Of a stretch of 35,423 nt of DNA, positions 1,370 to 22,139 are shown one piece after another. The stretch comes from a virus. The DNA is taken from positions 1 to 35,423 of the IMG/VR virus record IMGVR_UViG_3300037056_000015; one strand, given 5' to 3'. How positions within the stretch are numbered: position 1 is the first letter of the stretch; every line of letters begins with the position of its first letter. Made by a program: the position numbers and the translations under genes. Under the pieces are notes generated by a model. The model was given only the letters and a program-made list of their open reading frames with translations, searched no databases and was not told the origin of the DNA.

Positions 1370-2650
1370 CTATGGTGTATCGTTTGTTATATCTGCTGCT
1401 GTCATATTCTGCATATCTAAATCCAAAGACCCCACGAAATCATAAAGTATAGGGTATGTATCCCCGTCGCCCATCCTCCACCAATGGTCAGGTGGGTTTG
1501 TTAGTGACGTTAAGTAGTGAGGTACACCTGAATTGTAAATACTAGAAACATCTGATGTTATGTCAGAACCCCACAGAGCTAGCTCATCCAAGGTACAACT
1601 ATTTCGCATGTAATTACCAGATGTGCCGTTCCTACCTACCCTAAAATACTCAGGTAATATATCACCTGTGAATCCGAAATTATTATGCTGTCCAGTTAAG
1701 CTTACGCTTGAGCCATTTATGTACATCTTAAACCTACCGTAATAGGATGAGAGCGAACCCGAAGATGCACCTGTTGTTCCTCCATCGTAAGTTATGATAA
1801 AGTGGTTCCAAGCCGTTGTTACTGAGTTAGGTGGAGAGAGTACTGTTACGTTATTACCATCACTGCCATACCTCAATTTTAGCCGCTTGTCTCCACCAGA
1901 TCCATCATACCACAGCTGAACCCTACCCTCATTAGTTTGATCTGAACCTCCAAACATAAGTATGGTTTGCTCGCTATTGGTGTTGCTACCTGCCTTGAAG
2001 AAGAAAGAAACACCCCAAGCATCAGATGACCCAGACCCATTACCTGACCTATAGAGAGGGTTATTTGTGTCTGGCGAGCATTCACACCAATCATTTTGGT
2101 TGAATCTAACGCTTTTAGTGTTAGAGAAAGGCGGGTTACTTACATTAATCACTAGAGTTTCTGAGTCTTGTCCGTTATAATTAATAGCACTCATACCTAC
2201 GTTATAAGTCCCAGCTGCAAGTCCAGTACCCCCTATGAGCTTTCTATTATTACCCTCAGCTGTTGTAAGACCAGCTGGTAGATTTGACCACTCATAACCA
2301 ACACCATAATCCGCTATTAGCTCGTAGTTTATGGTGTTGCCTGTTACTGAGTTTATGCTAGTGGTAGACGTTATTGCAGGTAGTTGGTCTGTACCTGTAC
2401 CTGTCTCTTGAAACACAGAGTTAAGCTCATTAACTACTGTGGCAGAGTCAGCACCGTATGAGATGCTGTTCTCATCAACAAATGAAGAGTACTCTAATTC
2501 ACTCACAATCTCTATATCTCTAGATATGTCACGGATAGACACCTTAGTACCAGAAGATATGGCTTGCAGGTTGTTTAGGAACTGTGCCCCATTACTGTTC
2601 TCGATGAAAACTGCATTTGCAGAGTCATCCCTATATGTTTTTACAATCAT
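1370..2650 (-). CDS. Virion surface protein with Ig-like and LamG/ConA-like domains
   Basis: A 426-residue protein. Residues 1-85 form an acidic domain typical of virion-attachment ends. Residues ~95-170 look like a putative-Ig/cadherin-like fold (YEWSNLPAGLTTAEGNNRKL, then GTYNVGMSAIN). Residues ~178-400 match the LamG/concanavalin A-like jelly roll: AWGVSFFFKAG, WNHFIITYDG, MYINGSSV, LDELALWGSDI and a late WWRMGDG. Such domains bind carbohydrate or act as adhesins on phage appendages. Its start overlaps the previous gene's stop by four bases (ATGA), so it is co-translated with the 172-aa protein. Likely role is host-surface or glycan binding; decoration of the head or a side fibre is equally possible. 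Confidence 0.75.
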   Translation of the reverse strand: MIVKTYRDDSANAVFIENSNGAQFLNNLQAISSGTKVSIRDISRDIEIVSELEYSSFVDENSISYGADSATVVNELNSVFQETGTGTDQLPAITSTTSINSVTGNTINYELIADYGVGYEWSNLPAGLTTAEGNNRKLIGGTGLAAGTYNVGMSAINYNGQDSETLVINVSNPPFSNTKSVRFNQNDWCECSPDTNNPLYRSGNGSGSSDAWGVSFFFKAGSNTNSEQTILMFGGSDQTNEGRVQLWYDGSGGDKRLKLRYGSDGNNVTVLSPPNSVTTAWNHFIITYDGGTTGASSGSLSSYYGRFKMYINGSSVSLTGQHNNFGFTGDILPEYFRVGRNGTSGNYMRNSCTLDELALWGSDITSDVSSIYNSGVPHYLTSLTNPPDHWWRMGDGDTYPILYDFVGSLDLDMQNMTAADITNDTP

Positions 2651-3165
2651 AAAGCTATTACCCCCAAAGCAGTACCCGCGTTGACAAGAGATCCATCCAC
2701 AGACAACCTCACCTGTAGTGCTATTGGATTATCTTTGGTGTTACTATCACCTATGTATATTAGGTCTGGCTTTAAGCTAAACCTGTACTGTATTCCGCTA
2801 CCCCTATCCAACCTACCAAGAGATGTCTCTAGTGTGTATGAACCTGCACCCGTACCAAGCATGTATCGCAGGTCTAGACTGCAATTGTTTGAAGTAGGGG
2901 TTATTGTAAAGTCATTCCTTATATACACCTGATAGCCTATGGGTAATTGCGTAAAATCTAACTCGCCAGATGCTGTATTCATTAAGGAAGATACACCTTG
3001 AGGTAGGCTACCAGAGTTACTAAATAAACCTAAGCCATCGTTAGGTATCGAAGTCCAAACATCAGCGACGAGTGATAATGGTGAGGATGAAGTACTGGTA
3101 TCATTATAATCTGCAAACCCACCTATGGTGTTACCACTGAATGACTCTATTCTTCTTATAGGCAT
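2647..3165 (-). CDS. Beta-rich virion protein, possibly a fibre head, 172 aa
   Basis: 172 residues, almost wholly predicted beta strand, with alternating Ser/Thr/Gly-rich loops and no membrane segment or signal peptide. The pattern of the C-terminal two-thirds (VYIRNDFTITP, LDLRYMLGTG, IQYRFSLKPDLIYIG, IALQVRLSVDG) resembles small jelly-roll head-fibre or tail-tip proteins of marine phages, but I cannot assign a family. It is coupled at both ends (TAATG with the 85-aa gene and ATGA with the LamG gene), which suggests that the three products form one appendage. Confidence 0.6.
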   Translation of the reverse strand: MPIRRIESFSGNTIGGFADYNDTSTSSSPLSLVADVWTSIPNDGLGLFSNSGSLPQGVSSLMNTASGELDFTQLPIGYQVYIRNDFTITPTSNNCSLDLRYMLGTGAGSYTLETSLGRLDRGSGIQYRFSLKPDLIYIGDSNTKDNPIALQVRLSVDGSLVNAGTALGVIAL

Positions 3166-3422
3166 TATGCACCACCTATTATCTTAATGCGACCTGAAGA
3201 GTCGCCTCTTATGTATACTGGTAGGTATGTCGTGTTGTATGTGTAGAAGTTACAACCATTCGGTATTAATATAGAGTCGCTATTATCTAGGGGCGCACTG
3301 TCCCCTATATACAGGTAGATGTTTGTACCTATATTATTGAATATGTCCATATTACCCTTCATACCTACTGGCAGTATCTCTTCATACGAGGTTGTTATGT
3401 CATAACCTATTGTCTTTGCCAT
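3165..3422 (-). CDS. Small beta-sandwich virion accessory protein, 85 aa
   Basis: 85 residues with a clear beta-repeat: NIYLYIGDSAPL, an IPNG turn, YTYNTTYLPVYIRGD, then GRIKIIGG. This arrangement is common in short phage capsid- or fibre-decorating proteins that package position-specific beta strands around an IPxG-like turn. A GGAGGAATAAGT leader gives a strong ribosome binding site. It is the first gene of a three-gene coupled unit with the 172-aa and LamG proteins. Function beyond a structural or adaptor role is not claimed. Confidence 0.55.
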   Translation of the reverse strand: MAKTIGYDITTSYEEILPVGMKGNMDIFNNIGTNIYLYIGDSAPLDNSDSILIPNGCNFYTYNTTYLPVYIRGDSSGRIKIIGGA

Positions 3423-3434
3423 ACTTATTCCTCC

Positions 3435-3836
3435 TTACTTTAAGTTGCGTATTTTAATGTATTGTTGTCTCATCCGTCTAATCGTCTCAAACGGGGAGGG
3501 GAATATATATCCAAGCAAGAAGATGCCGAAGGCAATCCACGCTAGGATCTTAGGGCTAGGCATGTTGTTTACTATAAATGCCTCAGTATCAACACCACCT
3601 TGTATGGCAGTGTTGCTTGTGTCGCTGCTAAGGGTAACGTCGCCACCCTCAGTTTCTATTTCATTCTTACGTTGGTCACCAGCAATAACCTGCTTGTTAG
3701 CTTCTTTACCAACCTGTGCGTGGATCTGGGGGCCACCGCCCCCTAGACCTACAGCTTTCTTGACCATATCCATAGGGCTACAGGCCGTTAAGACCAGTAG
3801 CATCAGGACAAGCTCTATACGTTGAAAAGTTGTCAT
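3435..3836 (-). CDS. Putative unimolecular spanin-like lipoprotein, 133 aa
   Basis: An N-terminal lipoprotein signal (hydrophobic LVLMLLVL followed by lipobox LTAC, Cys at residue 19), a ~75-residue periplasmic linker rich in Gln, Thr and Asn, and one transmembrane segment near residues 98-114 (ILAWIAFGIFLLGYIF) with a basic C-terminal tail. Outer-membrane lipid anchor plus inner-membrane C-terminal helix in one chain is the topology of u-spanins such as T1 gp11, which fuse inner and outer membranes in the last lysis step. It sits among virion-surface genes, not beside the holin. The ribosome binding site AAGGAGAG is good. Alternative: a lipoprotein with a host-membrane role such as superinfection exclusion. 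Confidence 0.6.
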   Translation of the reverse strand: MTTFQRIELVLMLLVLTACSPMDMVKKAVGLGGGGPQIHAQVGKEANKQVIAGDQRKNEIETEGGDVTLSSDTSNTAIQGGVDTEAFIVNNMPSPKILAWIAFGIFLLGYIFPSPFETIRRMRQQYIKIRNLK

Positions 3837-3850
3837 GTGTCTCTCCTTCC

Positions 3851-5515
3851 TTATGCTTCTGGGACTAATATTTCACCTAGGGCTACTGAGCCAGTAGGGT
3901 GAGTTAATACGAAGTCTTCACTATCTACTAATATAGTAGCTGAACAAGCGTATGTGAGGGGCATAGTTACACTTTGTCCTTGCACGAATAGTATCATACT
4001 ATCAGGAATAGCTGTCCCATCAGATACAGTAAAGACTGCTCCATCCTGTCTTGTAAATGTTATGATGTCATTGTCGTAATCAAGTGCTACACCAAACCGC
4101 AGTGAAGTACCTGCGGATTCAGTTGTGTGAAGGGTCACTGGGGTTCCACCTGTAACTCCTCCCGATACTGAAATAGTTTGGGAGTTTCTATCTAAAGCGC
4201 AAGTAACAAAAGCAGACCACCCAGACGATAACTCTGCTAGTGTTGTAAGTAGTTGTGCATACCCAGCTCCTGCGCTAGATGAAGGTAAATCTATTACCAT
4301 TTCGTATGTGACTACACCTGTAACACCTGTTCCTGTAGTATGAGTGCCAGAGGCAAGCACTGCACCTACGCCATCTTCAGTAGCTATCTCACCTCTTCCG
4401 ATAGTACTTGTTACGAAGGTAGCTGTGTTCAGCTTGACGCCTGAATAGTCCATAGAACCATCTGCACCGAACACTTGTGCATCTGCGTCTGATAATCCGA
4501 AGCTCCAATCACTAGCACTGACTGGTGCAGGATCAATAGGCTCCTCCATGCTCAGCCATAGGTTCACATGCTCTATGTCTTCTGCTGTAGGTTCAGTGTT
4601 AAAGATGAATGCCTTTGACAACACCTGTGAGTTATCCATGCCGATAGTGCATCCGTTATAGTAACGATAACCTGCATTCGGCCCTACGCCTGTGTAGCTC
4701 GCTTGCGGAACACCATCAATATATGCGTAAACAGCAGATCCGTTAGTTTTTGAGTCAAGAGCAAGTACAATATTGGTGTACACATCGTCATCGACCATGT
4801 CTATATCACCGATAAGCTTTGAACCACAATCGCCTATCTCTCCATTACACTGACCTGTTGCCCCCAAAGCAGGGTACTTGTAGAATTGGTTCTGGTTAGA
4901 ACTAGAGGAGAACTGTATTACACTTAGCGCATTAGTCCCACCAAAATTAGAACGTACGCCGAAGCAGGCACCATACTCGCCAGAGTTTATCCCTATTGAG
5001 TTAGTTATGGAGCTTGAACCATCTGACCAATTGTTATTTGTTGTATAGAAAGTCTGAGTAGATCCACTCTCCTTAGTAATACCCTTAGCGTGAACAGTGA
5101 TACCGCTACCCCCTTCAAGGTGCGGGTATCCAAGGGCGTCTCCGTGATAGCCCTTAATTGACTTAACCTGATCGCCGATAGCATCAACAGGATTGAGCGC
5201 GCTAATGTCTGAGAACATCATTGTCAGGTCAGTGAAATCATAAGCTATGCCTACCTTACCTGTCTGCATAAGAGTAGTGATATCGAAACCTGCTGAACCA
5301 CCTAAGCCGAAGCCCAGTGTGCCATCATCTTGCTTAACCATGAAGTGGTAAGTGCCCTCTGTATGCACGATGAAGATCTCACCCGCCTCTGACTGGTTAG
5401 GATCTAGGGCCTTAGCGTCTAGGCTATCGTAGATGTGGAGGTTGTTGTATGCCATGCGAACTGGCTGCTTCTCTGTGATGCTACGCTTCGCGTTACCTGT
5501 AATGGATAGTGCCAT
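3851..5515 (-). CDS. Large virion surface protein with ConA/LamG-like and SPRY-like regions
   Basis: 554 residues. The N-terminal ~75 residues start MALSITGNA, identical to the start of the 92-aa gene at 6314-6036, and share its GxxFIxxxxGxYxxMV core, so this is probably a shared docking module. A central region (~120-320) is LamG/ConA-like (DSKTNGSAVYAYIDGVPQ, then HVNLWLSMEE). A C-terminal region (~340-554) has a SPRY-like core, LRFGVALDYDNDIITFTRQDG. No catalytic motif is visible. Likely an appendage or capsid-decorating lectin that binds host surface or matrix glycans. Ribosome binding site GAGGAGGAAG. Confidence 0.65.
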   Translation of the reverse strand: MALSITGNAKRSITEKQPVRMAYNNLHIYDSLDAKALDPNQSEAGEIFIVHTEGTYHFMVKQDDGTLGFGLGGSAGFDITTLMQTGKVGIAYDFTDLTMMFSDISALNPVDAIGDQVKSIKGYHGDALGYPHLEGGSGITVHAKGITKESGSTQTFYTTNNNWSDGSSSITNSIGINSGEYGACFGVRSNFGGTNALSVIQFSSSSNQNQFYKYPALGATGQCNGEIGDCGSKLIGDIDMVDDDVYTNIVLALDSKTNGSAVYAYIDGVPQASYTGVGPNAGYRYYNGCTIGMDNSQVLSKAFIFNTEPTAEDIEHVNLWLSMEEPIDPAPVSASDWSFGLSDADAQVFGADGSMDYSGVKLNTATFVTSTIGRGEIATEDGVGAVLASGTHTTGTGVTGVVTYEMVIDLPSSSAGAGYAQLLTTLAELSSGWSAFVTCALDRNSQTISVSGGVTGGTPVTLHTTESAGTSLRFGVALDYDNDIITFTRQDGAVFTVSDGTAIPDSMILFVQGQSVTMPLTYACSATILVDSEDFVLTHPTGSVALGEILVPEA

Positions 5516-5516
5516 A

Positions 5517-5954
5517 TTATGCTTCCTCCTCTTCTTCTACTGCTGGGCTGTAAGGCTGCAAGTATGTAGGGTTAGTTAGTCCGTTCACTAAGAACAAGTC
5601 TGCTAGTGCAGTCTGGTCGATAGTACGGGTGTCGTTGTCTTCGTAGATACAGTAGTAGTCGATGTCGATTACTGACTTGATGTACGCAATGGCGGCCTCG
5701 CTATACCCTAGGGCTACTAGGAACGAAGGGTAAAGCTCATCGTTGAAGTCGTCAACCAAGTCAGCGAACTCCGACACAGCGTAATGCTCAGCGCCTACAG
5801 CGCCCTCGTCGGACTCCATTACCCACACTTGCTCATGTGTCTCAGCTGGATCTGTTTCAGCGAAAGCTTTAAGTTTATTATGGAGGGCCAAGCCTAACTC
5901 CTTATCCTGTGCTACGATCTGTACCATGTATTGCCATTCTGTTAATTGAGCCAT
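5517..5954 (-). CDS. Hypothetical acidic protein, 145 aa
   Basis: A 145-residue, strongly acidic protein, mostly helical (MAQLTEWQYMVQIVAQDKEL...), ending in a run of glutamates. No signal peptide, membrane segment or known motif seen. It begins after the terminator at 6004-6027, with an ACAGGAGGG ribosome binding site, and its stop lies one base before the start of the 554-aa surface protein. A chaperone or assembly factor for that protein would fit the arrangement (tail-fibre assembly proteins are often small, acidic and adjacent), but nothing in the sequence proves it. Confidence 0.5.
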   Translation of the reverse strand: MAQLTEWQYMVQIVAQDKELGLALHNKLKAFAETDPAETHEQVWVMESDEGAVGAEHYAVSEFADLVDDFNDELYPSFLVALGYSEAAIAYIKSVIDIDYYCIYEDNDTRTIDQTALADLFLVNGLTNPTYLQPYSPAVEEEEEA

Positions 5955-6003
5955 GTGACCCTCCTGTTTGTTTTATTGATGTACTCTGTGCCCAAAGCAC
6001 ATG

Positions 6004-6027
6004 AAGAAAACCCCCGCCGAAGCGGGG
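6004..6027 (-). terminator. Rho-independent terminator
   Basis: Minus-strand stem CCCCGC paired with GCGGGG, loop TTCG, followed by GTTTTCTTC. It stands nine bases after the stop of the 92-aa gene and before the acidic-protein gene, so it closes the terminase/decoration transcript. Confidence 0.8.
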
Positions 6028-6035
6028 ATATTGTA

Positions 6036-6314
6036 TTACGCTGGTGTAGTGTAAACGGTTTCTGTAGCTGCATTAACTAGAACCCAAGTGTCAGTAGTAG
6101 CTGTGCCTGTAGCTGTAACCATTGTGTAAACACCAGCGTTGTTAGCAATGAATAAACCGCCGATATCTTTATTAGATAGAACTGTGTCATTAAGTGCGCT
6201 AGTTGCGTCGTCAAGATCCGCCTTGAGTACTACAGGGATCTCGTCAAATACCAAAGGAGTTGCGTCTAGGATGGGGCCTTCTAATACTGCGTTGCCTGTG
6301 ATTGATAGTGCCAT
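6036..6314 (-). CDS. Small virion protein (decoration-type), paralogue 2, 92 aa
   Basis: 92 residues starting MALSITGNA. The core IGGLFIANNAGVYTMVTATGTATTDTW aligns with DGGLFIFDNGTAPVLCVVDDTG in the adjacent 93-aa gene and with EIFIVHTEGTYHFMV near the N-terminus of the 554-aa protein. The chain is a compact beta-rich module. Its leader contains a perfect 14-bp AT palindrome followed by AACAACAAATGAGG, mirroring the leader of the 93-aa gene. Tandem duplication, then divergence, is the simplest history. A capsid-decoration or appendage-docking role is inferred from position after the large terminase and from the shared module. Confidence 0.6.
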   Translation of the reverse strand: MALSITGNAVLEGPILDATPLVFDEIPVVLKADLDDATSALNDTVLSNKDIGGLFIANNAGVYTMVTATGTATTDTWVLVNAATETVYTTPA

Positions 6315-6335
6315 GATAAATTACCTCATTTGTTG

Positions 6336-6349
6336 TTAAATATATTTAA
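6336..6349. promoter_or_regulatory. Perfect 14-bp AT palindrome in the leader of paralogue 2
   Basis: TTAAATATATTTAA, self-complementary over all 14 bases, directly followed on the minus strand by CAACAAATGAGG, which includes the ribosome binding site. The leader of the adjacent paralogue has a 12-bp AT palindrome in the same place. Candidate operator or promoter element. Confidence 0.4.
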
Positions 6350-6363
6350 GTGCTGCTAAGTGA

Positions 6364-6645
6364 TTAACCTGTGTAATCTGTACCAGATGTCAAAACTGCT
6401 GCTGTTTGTCCAGTTACGCCTGTATCATCTACAACACAAAGTACGGGAGCCGTGCCGTTGTCAAAGATGAATAAGCCGCCATCTGTTACAGACGAGCCAG
6501 CGCCACGGAAATCGTAAGGGCCAGTGCCCTCTACTTCTGCTTCAGCGATAACAGGGATGCTTGTAAAGCAGCGAACAGCTGTAGTGTTCTCCGCTTGGAA
6601 GCTTACAGGCTGTGAATCACCTGAAAATGTAGTGCCATATGCCAT
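6364..6645 (-). CDS. Small virion protein (decoration-type), paralogue 1, 93 aa
   Basis: 93 residues starting MAYGTTFSGDSQP. The stretch SIPVIAEAEVEGTGPYDFRG corresponds to EIPVVLKADLDDATSALND in the neighbouring 92-aa protein, and the following GGLFIFDN matches GGLFIANN there, so the two are paralogues. No membrane segment or catalytic motif. It directly follows the large terminase gene, where T7 has no structural gene, and opens the accessory virion block. A T7-type promoter-like sequence (6656-6674) lies immediately upstream. Likely capsid decoration or appendage adaptor; this is an inference from fold-like pattern and context. Confidence 0.6.
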   Translation of the reverse strand: MAYGTTFSGDSQPVSFQAENTTAVRCFTSIPVIAEAEVEGTGPYDFRGAGSSVTDGGLFIFDNGTAPVLCVVDDTGVTGQTAAVLTSGTDYTG

Positions 6646-6655
6646 GATATGTACT

Positions 6656-6679
6656 CCTATAGTTGTTGATATTAATATC
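6656..6679 (-). promoter_or_regulatory. T7-type promoter-like sequence with AT palindrome
   Basis: On the minus strand TAATATCAACAACTATAGG (6674-6656) matches the T7 late promoter at 14 of 19 positions, including TAATA at -17 to -13 and ACTATAGG over the start site. It partly overlaps a perfect 12-bp palindrome GATATTAATATC (6668-6679) that also contains the large terminase stop codon. It would drive the decoration-protein pair. It differs from the four-copy element elsewhere in the window, so the two cannot both be the main promoter of one polymerase; a chance match is quite possible. Confidence 0.35.
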
Positions 6680-8486
6680 GTTTCTTACGTGTTTGACTCT
6701 TCTGAGCCACTCCTGTCATCCGTTCCCGTCTAAGTGCTGGGTCAAGCATGACTCGAAGTTCTGCCTTCATGTCCTTCACTGCTCGCTCTTTCTCCACCCT
6801 ATGGGCGTCATAGTCAAGCTCTTCAATACATTGCCTCACGGCTCCTGCCAGTGAATCAAGTCTGTCGTCATGCCTCAAGCAGCCACGTTCTCTAGAGATG
6901 TGGGCCATTTGGTGCATGAGAGTATAGGTTATAGCCTTGCCAGTTGGGTATTGGCGGAAAGCCGAAGCTGTGTCTTCCTTGATGACTGCCTCTGATATCA
7001 CCAGCCTATGGTTAGATATAACAGGCTCTAGGATATCGCATATGCGATCTTCCTTCTGACCCATAACATTATCATCTACCAACGTGCATGGGTGGTGTTT
7101 CTCAAATAGTGGCCGAAGTGCAGCCATGTGTGCGCCGTTACCGTAGTTCTTCTCAATGAAGACCTCACGGGCGCCTGCTTTCTTAGCAGCATTAACTAAC
7201 TTCATTAGGCTAGCTTCTTCATAGCCTCCTAATGCACCGCCTATGTCGAGTAAGTACATTGTGGTGTTGATCAGGCCTAATATAGAGTAAGCCATTTCGT
7301 CACCGTTCGCACCGCCACCGGATGGATCAATGTACATGATCTTACGGTCATACACACGCCAGTCGTAGGGTTTATCTACAACGGCTTGGAAGTGGCTATC
7401 TCGCAGGTTGCCTATCTTGGGCAGTCCTTTGATGGTGCTTTCAGCGGCTTTACTATGCATAGGAGAGACTGGCCCTTCTAGTTCATTGTATAGCGCTACT
7501 GCTAAGTTATTAAGCTTGAGAGGGAACTTGCTAGCATCCGACAGTTGCGTATTGAGCATGAATTGCAGCTGGAACTTAGCCGCACCCTGTGAGCCTTCTT
7601 TCTTTGTGAGTCCCGCATCATCTAGGCCATCCATCTCTGGACACGTTGCATGTCCTGAACCACCTCCTATGCCTTGTCCAGATTGCAGCTCTGGGTTTAG
7701 CTCTATGTCACGACGGAACATAGGAGCCAATAGGCCATCAAAGTCTGGCAACTCTTCCACTGTTGGATAACGACCAGTCCAGATACGAACCTCGTACCCC
7801 CGCGCAGGGAGTTCGGTGTAGATACTATCGCTAGATTGCGGAGTACCTAAGTACACGATATCACCACTAGAGTTAATAGATTCAAACTCTTTGGTGGTAT
7901 CTTCTAGGATAGCCTTAGCTTCCACGGTTCGTGTGTTCTTCTGTGATTCAACGTCATCCGCTATCAGGAGACCAGCGCGCATCCCCGCACAACCTGCCTC
8001 AATTGATTGGCACACTACCGATGGTGACTTTGGTGCCCCCTTTAGCGAGTAGTGAACGTCGAACTTCTCAGTGCTGTCACTATCACCATTGCTGGCATCA
8101 GGGCACATGAACTGTAAGTAGTCTACATTTCTGAAGATTTTAACAATCCATGTGGAAATCTCCTTAGCTCGTTTAGAGGACTGGGAGAAGATAACAACAG
8201 CAAGGGAGGGTTTGTGTATAAGCTTGAACACGGCGTAGATAGCTGCAACTGTAGTCTTAGCTTGTCCTCGCTGTGCCATGATCATACGATACAACGGGCC
8301 AGTCTGTAGGAAGTCGAGCATGTCGCCCTGAGTCCTGTTTAGCCTTGGTTTGCCGGGGATTGTCCTCTGTAGGATATCATCAGCGAAGTTAAGGAGGCCT
8401 TCTGTTGTATTAGGGTAGATCTCTTGTAGAGCGGCCAGCAGTTCCCACTGCTTAGCCTGCTCTGCTAGTGTCATCCTTTTAGCCAT
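6672..8486 (-). CDS. terL: Terminase large subunit
   Basis: 604 residues, close to T7 gp19 (586). It is the ATP-driven motor and nuclease that packages DNA through the portal and cuts the concatemer. The ATPase has a Walker A-like loop AQRGQAKTT at about residues 71-79 and a Walker B LLIADDVES near 175. The C-terminal nuclease shows YIDPSGGGANGDEMAYSI and, further on, IEKNYGNGAHM and RHDDRLDSLAGAV, whose acidic residues fit the metal site of the RNase H-like fold. The gene follows the small subunit by five bases, with the ribosome binding site GAGGTAATATAT. Its last codons overlap a palindromic promoter-like region for the decoration genes. Confidence 0.93.
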   Translation of the reverse strand: MAKRMTLAEQAKQWELLAALQEIYPNTTEGLLNFADDILQRTIPGKPRLNRTQGDMLDFLQTGPLYRMIMAQRGQAKTTVAAIYAVFKLIHKPSLAVVIFSQSSKRAKEISTWIVKIFRNVDYLQFMCPDASNGDSDSTEKFDVHYSLKGAPKSPSVVCQSIEAGCAGMRAGLLIADDVESQKNTRTVEAKAILEDTTKEFESINSSGDIVYLGTPQSSDSIYTELPARGYEVRIWTGRYPTVEELPDFDGLLAPMFRRDIELNPELQSGQGIGGGSGHATCPEMDGLDDAGLTKKEGSQGAAKFQLQFMLNTQLSDASKFPLKLNNLAVALYNELEGPVSPMHSKAAESTIKGLPKIGNLRDSHFQAVVDKPYDWRVYDRKIMYIDPSGGGANGDEMAYSILGLINTTMYLLDIGGALGGYEEASLMKLVNAAKKAGAREVFIEKNYGNGAHMAALRPLFEKHHPCTLVDDNVMGQKEDRICDILEPVISNHRLVISEAVIKEDTASAFRQYPTGKAITYTLMHQMAHISRERGCLRHDDRLDSLAGAVRQCIEELDYDAHRVEKERAVKDMKAELRVMLDPALRRERMTGVAQKSQTRKKRY

Positions 8487-8952: not shown

Positions 8953-10209
8953 TCAAAAGAACTCCTCTATTATTATTACTCCTGCTGAACCGTCCTGTGG
9001 GTCTGCGTTACCTGTAGTCGAGCCTAGCCCACCTACTCCATAGTTGCCACTAGCAACGTCAAGGTGTCCTGATTGGTTAGCTACTGATCCTCCTAGGAAC
9101 GAGCCACCACCTATTGAACTAAATATTTCATCAGAAGATGTACCGGATGGGTCTGATCTCTCGAAGCGTTTAGTACCGAAAGAGCCACCGAATAGTAACT
9201 GACCTGCTGTGCCTACACCCCCTGCACCGCCTGACCAGTCATCGGGAGAGACTCCCCCGCCGTTACCCCCAGTAGCTACTACGTGTGCGCCTAGAGATGA
9301 TGTACCCCCAGCAGCTCCCGCCACTGGGCCGTTGCCACCTGCTCCTTTAGAGCCTCCTGCTCCCACTGTAACTGTTAGGCTGGCGCCTACAAGAGCTGCT
9401 GTTAGGTAAGCAATAGCGCAACCGCCACCGCCACCACAAGCGCCTGCGTGAGTATTGAAGTTGTATAGCTGGCCACCACCGCCACCGCCTACGACTGTTA
9501 CCTTTACAGTACGCATACCAGTTGTGGGTGTGTATGTACCTGAAGCAGTGAACACTTGCATAGAGGCTGCACCTGTGCCTAATGCACTCGTCACTTGCTT
9601 AGCTGTAACGTAGCGTGTGTCGTCTGTACCTACTGCGAACTCGGCATCAGTGAGCTTCTCAACCGTACCCGCTACCGTCTCGGTTGCATAGGATACGCCG
9701 TTCAGCCCTACAAGTGCGTCATCAACATATGTACTCAGTCCGGCTACACTGTCATCAAGGTAACTCTTAGTAACCGCATCACTATCTAGTGTAGGGACAG
9801 AAAGACCCGTGAGAGAGCCTCCTGACATATCTAGGCCCATAGGCAAGTATGTAACTCCTAAACCATCACCTTCTATGTTTGAGTTATATCCGTCTTCTAT
9901 TTCCTGAACTGCCATGAGTACTTGGTTAAAAGCAATATTCATGTTAGTTGGCTTAGCCATGTTGGCATAGCTAAACGAACTGTATATGTTTGTAGTAGGG
10001 GTACGACGACGAACGAAGACCTTAGCATCAACCGCTGGGGCTGTGTCAAAGGTCAGTACGTTCTCAATGTCGAAGTTAAACCCTGTGTCTATAAGTAGAT
10101 CATCAACATAAACCTCTACGTGGGAGCTATCAAGATAGCCCCCTTTAAAGGCCATAGAGAAGGCCGTTTTGGTTCCGTCGCCTACATGCGAGAATGAAGA
10201 ATTAGCCAT
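8953..10209 (-). CDS. Tail fibre, T7 gp17-type N-terminus with glycine-rich tip
   Basis: 418 residues. Residues 1-~150 match the T7 tail-fibre N-terminal domain that docks to the tail (MANSSFSHVGDGTKTAFSMAF, VFVRRRTPTTNIYSSFSYANM, IAFNQVLMAVQEIEDG). A short shaft follows (YLDDSVAGLSTYVDDAL). From about residue 218 there is a glycine-rich tip domain: VFTASGTYTPTTGMRTVKVTVVGGGGGG and several later GG-rich stretches. Such tips can form polyglycine-type sandwiches in phage adhesins and are often the receptor-binding, fast-evolving part. It is shorter than T7 gp17 (553). It lies between gp16-like and holin genes as in T7. Confidence 0.88.
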   Translation of the reverse strand: MANSSFSHVGDGTKTAFSMAFKGGYLDSSHVEVYVDDLLIDTGFNFDIENVLTFDTAPAVDAKVFVRRRTPTTNIYSSFSYANMAKPTNMNIAFNQVLMAVQEIEDGYNSNIEGDGLGVTYLPMGLDMSGGSLTGLSVPTLDSDAVTKSYLDDSVAGLSTYVDDALVGLNGVSYATETVAGTVEKLTDAEFAVGTDDTRYVTAKQVTSALGTGAASMQVFTASGTYTPTTGMRTVKVTVVGGGGGGQLYNFNTHAGACGGGGGCAIAYLTAALVGASLTVTVGAGGSKGAGGNGPVAGAAGGTSSLGAHVVATGGNGGGVSPDDWSGGAGGVGTAGQLLFGGSFGTKRFERSDPSGTSSDEIFSSIGGGSFLGGSVANQSGHLDVASGNYGVGGLGSTTGNADPQDGSAGVIIIEEFF

Positions 10210-21296: not shown

Positions 21297-22139
21297 CTAC
21301 TCAATACCCTTTGCATGAGCTGCACGGCGCATACGGTCATACTTCTCTTCATTCTTGTAGTACTCGCCACTGAGCATTAGTTCACGGAAAGCATCGCCTG
21401 TTAGGGTACTAGATCCGTCCTTAGCAACTGTTTCACCAGCTACTAGCTCTAGGGTCTGTGTACCTTCAGCCGCTTCGTACCGCGACTTCATGTCCTTAAT
21501 GGCTAGATCCTGTGCATATGCTGAGCCTGACTCCATAACTGCATTGAAGTCTTCAAAGGCGCTGTCGTCTAGGTTCTCGGTTGCCCAGTCAGACATTGAG
21601 TTCCAGTTGTCCTCAGAACCTACTACCTCTACTGCTGCTTCCCATGCTTTGGTAGCATCAGCTTCAGCTGTGGCGCGATCTGTGCGCATACCATCTACGT
21701 GCATATCGTTTAGGGTCTTAGTAGAGCTTAGGAAAGCGTCTACCATGAATGCCCCGAACTTCTCGTCTAGAGCCGCTCGCGTCTCTTCAGAGAAACCAAA
21801 GTCTCCCTCATATAACTCTTTCGATAGAACATCAATGTCTAGATCAGACCCCTCGAACTGCGCTCGTAGGTCGTCAGGTACTTCAATGTTTATCTCTTCC
21901 CCGTCGTAACTGAATTGGTGATCATCTTCTGTGGCTTCCTCTTCAGTCCCTTCCTCGGTAGTCTCCTCGGTTGCCTCTCCTGTGCCTTCATCAACGACTG
22001 TCTGTTCTTCTGTTGCAGTCTCTTCTGTGACAGCTTCCTCGGTGACAACATCTTCTGTCACTGGGTTCTCGGTGACTACTTCCTCGACGGTCTCTTGTGT
22101 TTGTGTTGGGAAACTAATGTGTTCTCTTTCTTCACTCAT
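21297..22139 (-). CDS. Scaffold (capsid assembly) protein, T7 gp9-like
   Basis: 280 residues (T7 gp9 is 307). Very acidic, as scaffolds are. Residues ~18-45 are a low-complexity array built on a five-residue unit of the form xxVTE (a 15-bp DNA period), then a Glu/Thr-rich stretch. The middle (DLDIDVLSKELYEGDFGFSEETR) is the conserved gp9 part, and the C-terminus (EYYKNEEKYDRMRRAAHAKGIE) is basic, as needed to bind capsid subunits. It sits between portal and capsid, with ribosome binding site AGAGG. Confidence 0.87.
   Translation of the reverse strand: MSEEREHISFPTQTQETVEEVVTENPVTEDVVTEEAVTEETATEEQTVVDEGTGEATEETTEEGTEEEATEDDHQFSYDGEEINIEVPDDLRAQFEGSDLDIDVLSKELYEGDFGFSEETRAALDEKFGAFMVDAFLSSTKTLNDMHVDGMRTDRATAEADATKAWEAAVEVVGSEDNWNSMSDWATENLDDSAFEDFNAVMESGSAYAQDLAIKDMKSRYEAAEGTQTLELVAGETVAKDGSSTLTGDAFRELMLSGEYYKNEEKYDRMRRAAHAKGIE

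Follow-up and report, generated by a model that had tools for sequence, protein, structure and literature searches.

The region past the large terminase gene of an SP6-like phage raises the question of what its small tandem genes are for, and why a protein of 554 amino acids (aa) encoded a short way downstream begins with the same nine residues as one of them. The phage is represented by IMG/VR virus record IMGVR_UViG_3300037056_000015, a stretch of 35,423 bases that was analysed over its whole length (hereafter the window) and whose main genes lie on the minus strand. The major capsid protein shares 53-56% identity with those of SP6, Proteus PM 93 and similar phages (best matches listed) and the large terminase 46-53% with those of 28 IMG/VR loci, hence the window phage is, judged by these identities, an SP6-like phage of the T7 type, without a close relative in the collections searched. 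Three genes are at issue, encoding proteins of 93 aa (P0004), 92 aa (P0003) and 554 aa (P0001), and an earlier sequence-only reading had placed them in 3851-6645; they are indeed found there, on the minus strand at 6364-6645, 6036-6314 and 3851-5515, respectively. It had also assumed the three to be virion proteins and proposed that all three start with one duplicated module, possibly a docking tag for different heads.

Our comparisons lead to a more graded answer. The 92-aa and 93-aa genes appear to be tandem copies of an anciently duplicated module that is found past the large terminase in many related phages, and this module is most likely a docking piece of the virion surface (capsid), an account to which we give an even chance. 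The features that bear on it are the following.

6672..8486, minus strand: large terminase, 604 aa; positional anchor, the module genes of relatives lying directly downstream
6364..6645, minus strand: P0004, 93 aa; diverged first module copy, by arm match, position and pairwise likeness to P0003
6036..6314, minus strand: P0003, 92 aa; firm member of the module family, by external profile, phrog_2725 and AlphaFold2 core
6288..6314, minus strand: MALSITGNA arm of P0003, residues 1-9; low-confidence and extended in the model
6063..6242, minus strand: folded core of P0003, residues 25-84, by profile alignment; signature N...S.K..G...A.G....D.W
3851..5515, minus strand: P0001, 554 aa, with arm, doubtful core and large C-terminal part; adhesin or enzyme candidate
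5489..5515, minus strand: MALSITGNA arm of P0001, residues 1-9; peptide identical to the P0003 arm
5306..5443, minus strand: P0001 residues 25-70, possibly a degenerate module core; non-significant by profile, low-confidence model

A module family directly downstream of the large terminase

P0003 scores 49.5 bits (E 3e-15) with a profile built from other phages alone, which excludes P0003, and nothing else in the window rises above chance with that profile. With a wider profile of relatives, which includes P0003 itself, the score is 56.2 bits over residues 25-84, and P0003 also matches phrog_2725 (E 2.2e-10). It carries the core signature N...SGK..G...A.G....D.W that marks the family (the N-terminal part of phrog_2725), and N42, S47, K49, G52 and W77 are invariant in a family alignment of 25 rows. 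In the AlphaFold2 model, residues 1-25 are extended and of low confidence, and residues 26-80 form a confident small alpha/beta core made of a strand, helices, a hairpin and a strand. By sequence, P0003 thus belongs firmly to this post-terminase family.

In 23 of the 28 loci, all those that extend far enough, the large terminase is directly followed by module open reading frames (ORFs); in the other five the contig ends no farther than about 310 bp from the terminase match. The same placement is seen in SP6, K1E, VEN, Vc1, BD5, R25D, Njord, uligo, Alpheus, HJG, MGD2, CPG1g, Achelous, Nerthus and Ulitu01; members include SP6 gp42-gp44, K1E gp41-gp42 and proteins of Colwellvirinae phages. The family arm reads MAxxxTG[DEKN], of which MALSITGNA is the local version. 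A profile search returned one to three copies in each of 20 records, which had been picked via the terminase or via the family, the majority also having contributed to the profile; in the window only P0003 passed. The SP6 and K1E copies (gp42, gp43 and gp44, and gp41 and gp42, respectively; phrog_2725) resemble those of the window in post-terminase place, arm, core signature and tandem arrangement, whereas the window copies are more diverged; the SP6 and K1E copies are without a supported function. The stretches around the large terminase genes of T7 and phiKMV gave no module match, and a kinship with phiKMV gp47 and gp48, annotated as minor head proteins, was rejected for want of a profile match. 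Scans of viral contigs with P0001, its residues 1-85, P0003 and P0004 returned no relatives, and no description of the post-terminase module was found in the literature searched.

The first-, second- and third-position copies fall mostly in separate branches of a 69-row tree, which has few columns, many unresolved forks, and P0003 and P0004 on long branches. As the copies group largely by position, the tree points to an old duplication of the module.

P0004 as a diverged first copy

The sequence-only reading took the 93-aa and 92-aa genes for tandem paralogues, and this holds. The first 20 residues of P0004 match MAYSTTIGDAQP-type arms of the family (only one of 2000 shuffles and none of 348 external or 90 window controls were as good), and its gene sits directly past the large terminase, in the slot of the first copy, so that both arm and position are those of the post-terminase family. 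In pairwise comparison, judged here and below against 5000 shuffles, 20 shuffles were as good as the likeness between P0003 and P0004. Otherwise P0004 has diverged far from the family: over its full length it scores only weakly with the profile (equalled by 16 to 20 of 2000 shuffles), the wider profile gives 1.7 bits (equalled by 45 of 5000 shuffles and by 27 of the 419 unrelated ORF starts), the core is without SGK and W, and P0004 forms the longest branch in the family tree. It is taken as a diverged copy because of the arm match, the first-copy slot and the pairwise likeness together, which show it, at the level of sequence, to be a very diverged paralogue of P0003.

The arm shared by P0001 and P0003

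MALSITGNA opens two of the three proteins, P0003 and P0001, as had been noticed, and these are the only pair of ORFs in the window with the same first six residues. The coding DNA of the nine residues is identical at 23 of 27 bases, and all four differences are synonymous and fall on third codon positions. The sequence-only reading was right about this near-identity; the recent exchange that it considered was rejected, since four of the eight codons that have synonyms differ and the flanks of the two segments show no likeness upstream or downstream. Recent exchange is thus unneeded and unlikely, and the peptide appears to have been kept while its DNA drifted. The arm can be regarded as a firm common feature of P0001 and P0003 in sequence. 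When the first 20 residues of P0001 were compared with the arms of relatives, none of the 348 external controls was as good, against one of the 90 window controls and 32 of 2000 shuffles, the best match being an extended copy at locus L012 (MALPVTGERP). The test is blunt, because 35 of the 348 controls were as good as P0003's own arm.

The claim that the 554-aa protein begins with the same module stands for the nine-residue arm and is weak for the core that follows. The likeness of the P0001 N-terminus to P0003 was equalled by 7 of 5000 shuffles; without residues 1-9 the number rose to 380 of 5000, which is not significant. No likeness was found between the P0001 N-terminus and P0004 (4131 of 5000 shuffles as good). 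The core of P0001 is without the signature residues (N, SGK and W), although a short stretch, GxxFIxxxxGxY, lines up with the corresponding part of the module. The longer motif GxxFIxxxxGxYxxMV, which had been given for all three proteins, fits P0001, but it is one residue shorter in P0003 (GGLFIANNAGVYTMV) and reduced to GGLFI...CVV in P0004. An AlphaFold2 single-sequence model of P0001 residues 1-85 has a mean pLDDT (predicted local distance difference test) of 52, with residues 1-22 of low confidence; it places a strand at 25-29, a hairpin at 46-52/55-61 and a strand at 67-73, an order like that in P0003 yet too uncertain to count. The unrelated folds that would have spoken against the sequence-only reading did not emerge from this low-confidence model. 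The presence of the whole module in P0001 is therefore only weakly suggested by its sequence.

The C-terminal region of P0001 gave no family match above cut-off, and residues 458-491 have a sub-threshold SPRY match (E 0.13). Relatives of P0001 were sought in phages by tblastn, with none at E up to 1 and one chance match at E up to 10, and a sequence search of solved structures likewise gave one chance match (E 1).

Exchangeable ends behind the module

The expectation that the tag would precede other domains in related phages was borne out, as the module stands before a GDSL lipase, beta-rich domains, repeats and head-fibre-type ends in Uliginvirus and other relatives. More than 30 aa follow it in 18 of 68 distinct members, a sample whose loci were partly picked for looking fused. 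The second copy of Njord is 67% identical to that of HJG over residues 3-78 only, and their ends differ beyond. In uligo, gp43 ends in a GDSL lipase (phrog_6102, E 4.5e-131), as does the Ulitu01 copy (PF13472, 35.3 bits vs. a cut-off of 32.9). The same lipase is also present in Pseudomonas syringae phages of unrelated groups, with most of the alignments starting behind the module. Head-fibre ends are found in an Era103-type copy at locus L008 (phrog_4366, E 4.5e-11) and in VL73 gp43 (phrog_4366, E 7e-9; PF11133, 26.7 bits vs. a cut-off of 24.6). In Vc1 gp18 the module is fused to a domain that the window encodes, in a related form, as a separate 172-aa gene; the 172-aa protein matches phrog_2725 at positions 120-218 (E 1.2e-6) and the Vc1 record at 21690-21980, inside gp18, and has a phmmer match at E 2.2e-7. 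These sequence comparisons show the swapping of C-terminal ends behind the module in relatives.

The nearest layouts to P0001 are those of the Uliginvirus proteins uligo gp43 and Ulitu01_00044, which combine an MA(L)VTG-type arm, the module core and a large head in a protein of 558-580 aa. However, the second copies in Uliginvirus keep SGK and W, both of which P0001 is without, and their head is a GDSL lipase, for which P0001 gave no match. The head-fibre proteins (PF11133; phrog_4366), a family that does not include the module, resemble only the C-terminal ends of VL73 gp43 and L008; the head-fibre segment was found only in these two relatives, with no match in P0001, P0003 or P0004.

Two further observations concern extended proteins. 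From residue 35 onward, the Ulitu01 lipase protein (L046:2801-4474) has a match in Pseudomonas phage PHB09 (95 kb), which may, on this sequence match, carry part of the module outside the SP6-like/Colwellvirinae group. In Aeromonas phage HJG (L041:2798-3553), an unannotated 251-aa ORF contains the module and repeated SVNGV.PDE segments.

Enzyme annotation and fold comparisons

PHROGs (phrog_2725) and many records label the module family 'acetyl-CoA acetyltransferase'. The best NCBIfam thiolase match of P0003 reaches 12.4 bits, where the cut-off is 462, and no Pfam family was found at E up to 1; the enzyme name is thus unsupported, given the protein size and the model scores. In a comparison with PDB structures, the best rows for the P0003 model were RsmE-type methyltransferases (Z 4.8, root-mean-square deviation (rmsd) 1.8-2.4, 54-56 residues aligned), an unremarkable range. 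Among predicted viral proteins, 13 matches at E up to 0.001 were obtained, and the named ones come from similar phages and include a 558-aa esterase.

The small capsid chain of phage LME-1 (9eg4_H) was the first PDB row of Foldseek for the module, a match too weak to count; it lies in the same unremarkable range (Z 3.0, rmsd 2.8, 54 residues aligned).

What the module may do

The docking account can be put as follows. The module would consist of a flexible N-terminal arm, MAxxxTG[DEKN], and a small alpha/beta core seated on a repeated site of the virion; bare copies would coat the particle, and extended copies would attach a head (an esterase, a trimeric fibre or a beta-rich binding domain) to sites of that kind. 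In the window phage, P0003 and P0004 would be the bare copies, and P0001 would carry its large surface domain by means of at least the same arm. We infer the virion location, the choice of the capsid over the tail and the docking of P0001 through its arm, and the capsid is the better guess because of the head-fibre ends in relatives.

An analogy is offered by Peru-2, a T7-like vibriophage for which the available part of a preprint describes an abundant small vertex decoration, P2_50, together with an abundant virion lipase, P2_42 (PMC13320782). Compared by description, P2_50 is an Ig-like beta sandwich that forms a pentamer on the vertices, whereas the P0003 model is a small alpha/beta core (PMC13320782). 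The decoration/lipase pair may serve as a useful analogy only (PMC13320782). A separate observation is a weak module match to a predicted protein of 473 aa in BFVD (UPI001EAA2096); P2_42 also has 473 aa, lengths alone being compared.

Several results weigh against the docking account. Nothing points directly to the capsid instead of the tail, and the head-fibre likeness is confined to a C-terminal segment that may also be present on other fibres. Two family profiles found no sequence match among solved structures, and a Foldseek search of the PDB with the P0003 model gave no match at E up to 0.001. In P0001 the core scores at control level by profile (0.1 bits; 60 of 419 unrelated ORF starts as high), and no recognised family member was among the 50 matches listed for its single-sequence model of residues 1-85. 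Virion proteomics or a structure of any family member was not found in the literature searched, and the available parts of seven articles report no proteomics of a module carrier (PMC5384007, PMC3765740, PMC7412075, PMC3347319, PMC4923195, PMC10537623, PMC4099482).

The module could instead be a tail-associated anchor or a tailspike-accessory piece, as several extended copies bear enzyme heads like those of tail-mounted spikes, and the spike genes of SP6 lie close downstream; but the tail fibre gene of the window (8953-10209) is separate and matches relatives by itself, and the head-fibre-type ends point to the head, which leaves a tail location rather unlikely, though worth keeping in view. 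A place outside the virion, as a packaging or assembly accessory that acts with the terminase and gained its ends for other reasons, would suit the small size and the invariable position directly past the large terminase. Lipase and fibre fusions make little sense for a packaging factor, however, and the terminase surroundings of T7 and phiKMV are without a module match, so that we consider this role unlikely. That the module proteins are acetyl-CoA acetyltransferases, as the record names and the phrog_2725 description have it, is hardly credible in view of their 90-99 aa and the thiolase and Pfam results given above.

A further alternative, compatible with the docking account, concerns P0001 alone, which might be unrelated to the module past residue 9 and carry a linear docking peptide, copied or constrained, with a separate fold behind it. 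The likeness lost with the first nine residues, the profile score at control level and the missing N, SGK and W favor this view; the short stretch that aligns in place and the strand order of the low-confidence model, similar to that of P0003, speak for a core, and the arm-only view comes close to an even chance. The docking account of the module as a whole, with capsid as the preferred site, is retained as the best explanation.

Neighboring genes

Past the terminase, the genes follow in the order P0004 (93 aa), P0003 (92 aa), P0002 (145 aa) and P0001 (554 aa), and then 133, 85, 172 and 426 aa. Three further features belong to this stretch.

6010..6029, minus strand: intrinsic-terminator-like hairpin CCCCGC TTCG GCGGGG with T-rich tail; closes the P0004-P0003 pair
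5517..5954, minus strand: P0002, 145 aa, acidic; no module copy, module profile score at shuffle level
2647..3165, minus strand: 172-aa protein; its relatives are the C-terminal half of module fusions, e.g., Vibrio phage Vc1 gp18

A late transcript would end at the hairpin after P0003. It is one of 3 terminator-like sites in 3300-7000, where 2.4 are expected, and because this count is near expectation the hairpin was called on its quality. As a conserved feature of module genes a terminator was not recovered, a strict rule finding one after only 1 of 67 genes of relatives. A single base lies between the stop codon of P0002 and the start of P0001, hence the two are probably translated together, and the acidic P0002 could be a partner or chaperone of P0001.

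The 426-aa protein (1370-2650) has a Laminin_G_3 match above the Pfam cut-off (30.4 vs. 27.6 bits) and is a candidate surface-binding protein. The 133-aa protein (3435-3836), with a lipobox-like start (LVLTACSP), a hydrophobic end and a relative in locus L006 (E 3.6e-5), is possibly related to lysis or the envelope.

Implications

Interchangeable N-terminal anchors are familiar in tail fibres and spikes. The module is probably another case of this known principle, an N-terminal anchor with exchangeable ends, in an overlooked family of SP6-like phages. A wider and more speculative picture, which we hold to be possible but on balance doubtful, is that SP6-type phages and Colwellvirinae share a capsid-mounted plug system, in which spare copies of a post-terminase module of ~80 residues gain heads horizontally (esterases, fibres or lectin-like domains), so that host-surface tools on the head would be exchanged without involving the tailspikes; in the window phage no more than a short linear arm would be left of the docking part, on a 554-aa adhesin. 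In phages as well known as SP6 and K1E, a module beside the terminase appears to act as an interchangeable anchor under an unsupported enzyme name, a role that is directly testable in a standard laboratory phage. If it sits on the capsid, these phages would have a second, tail-independent place for the swapping of surface proteins.

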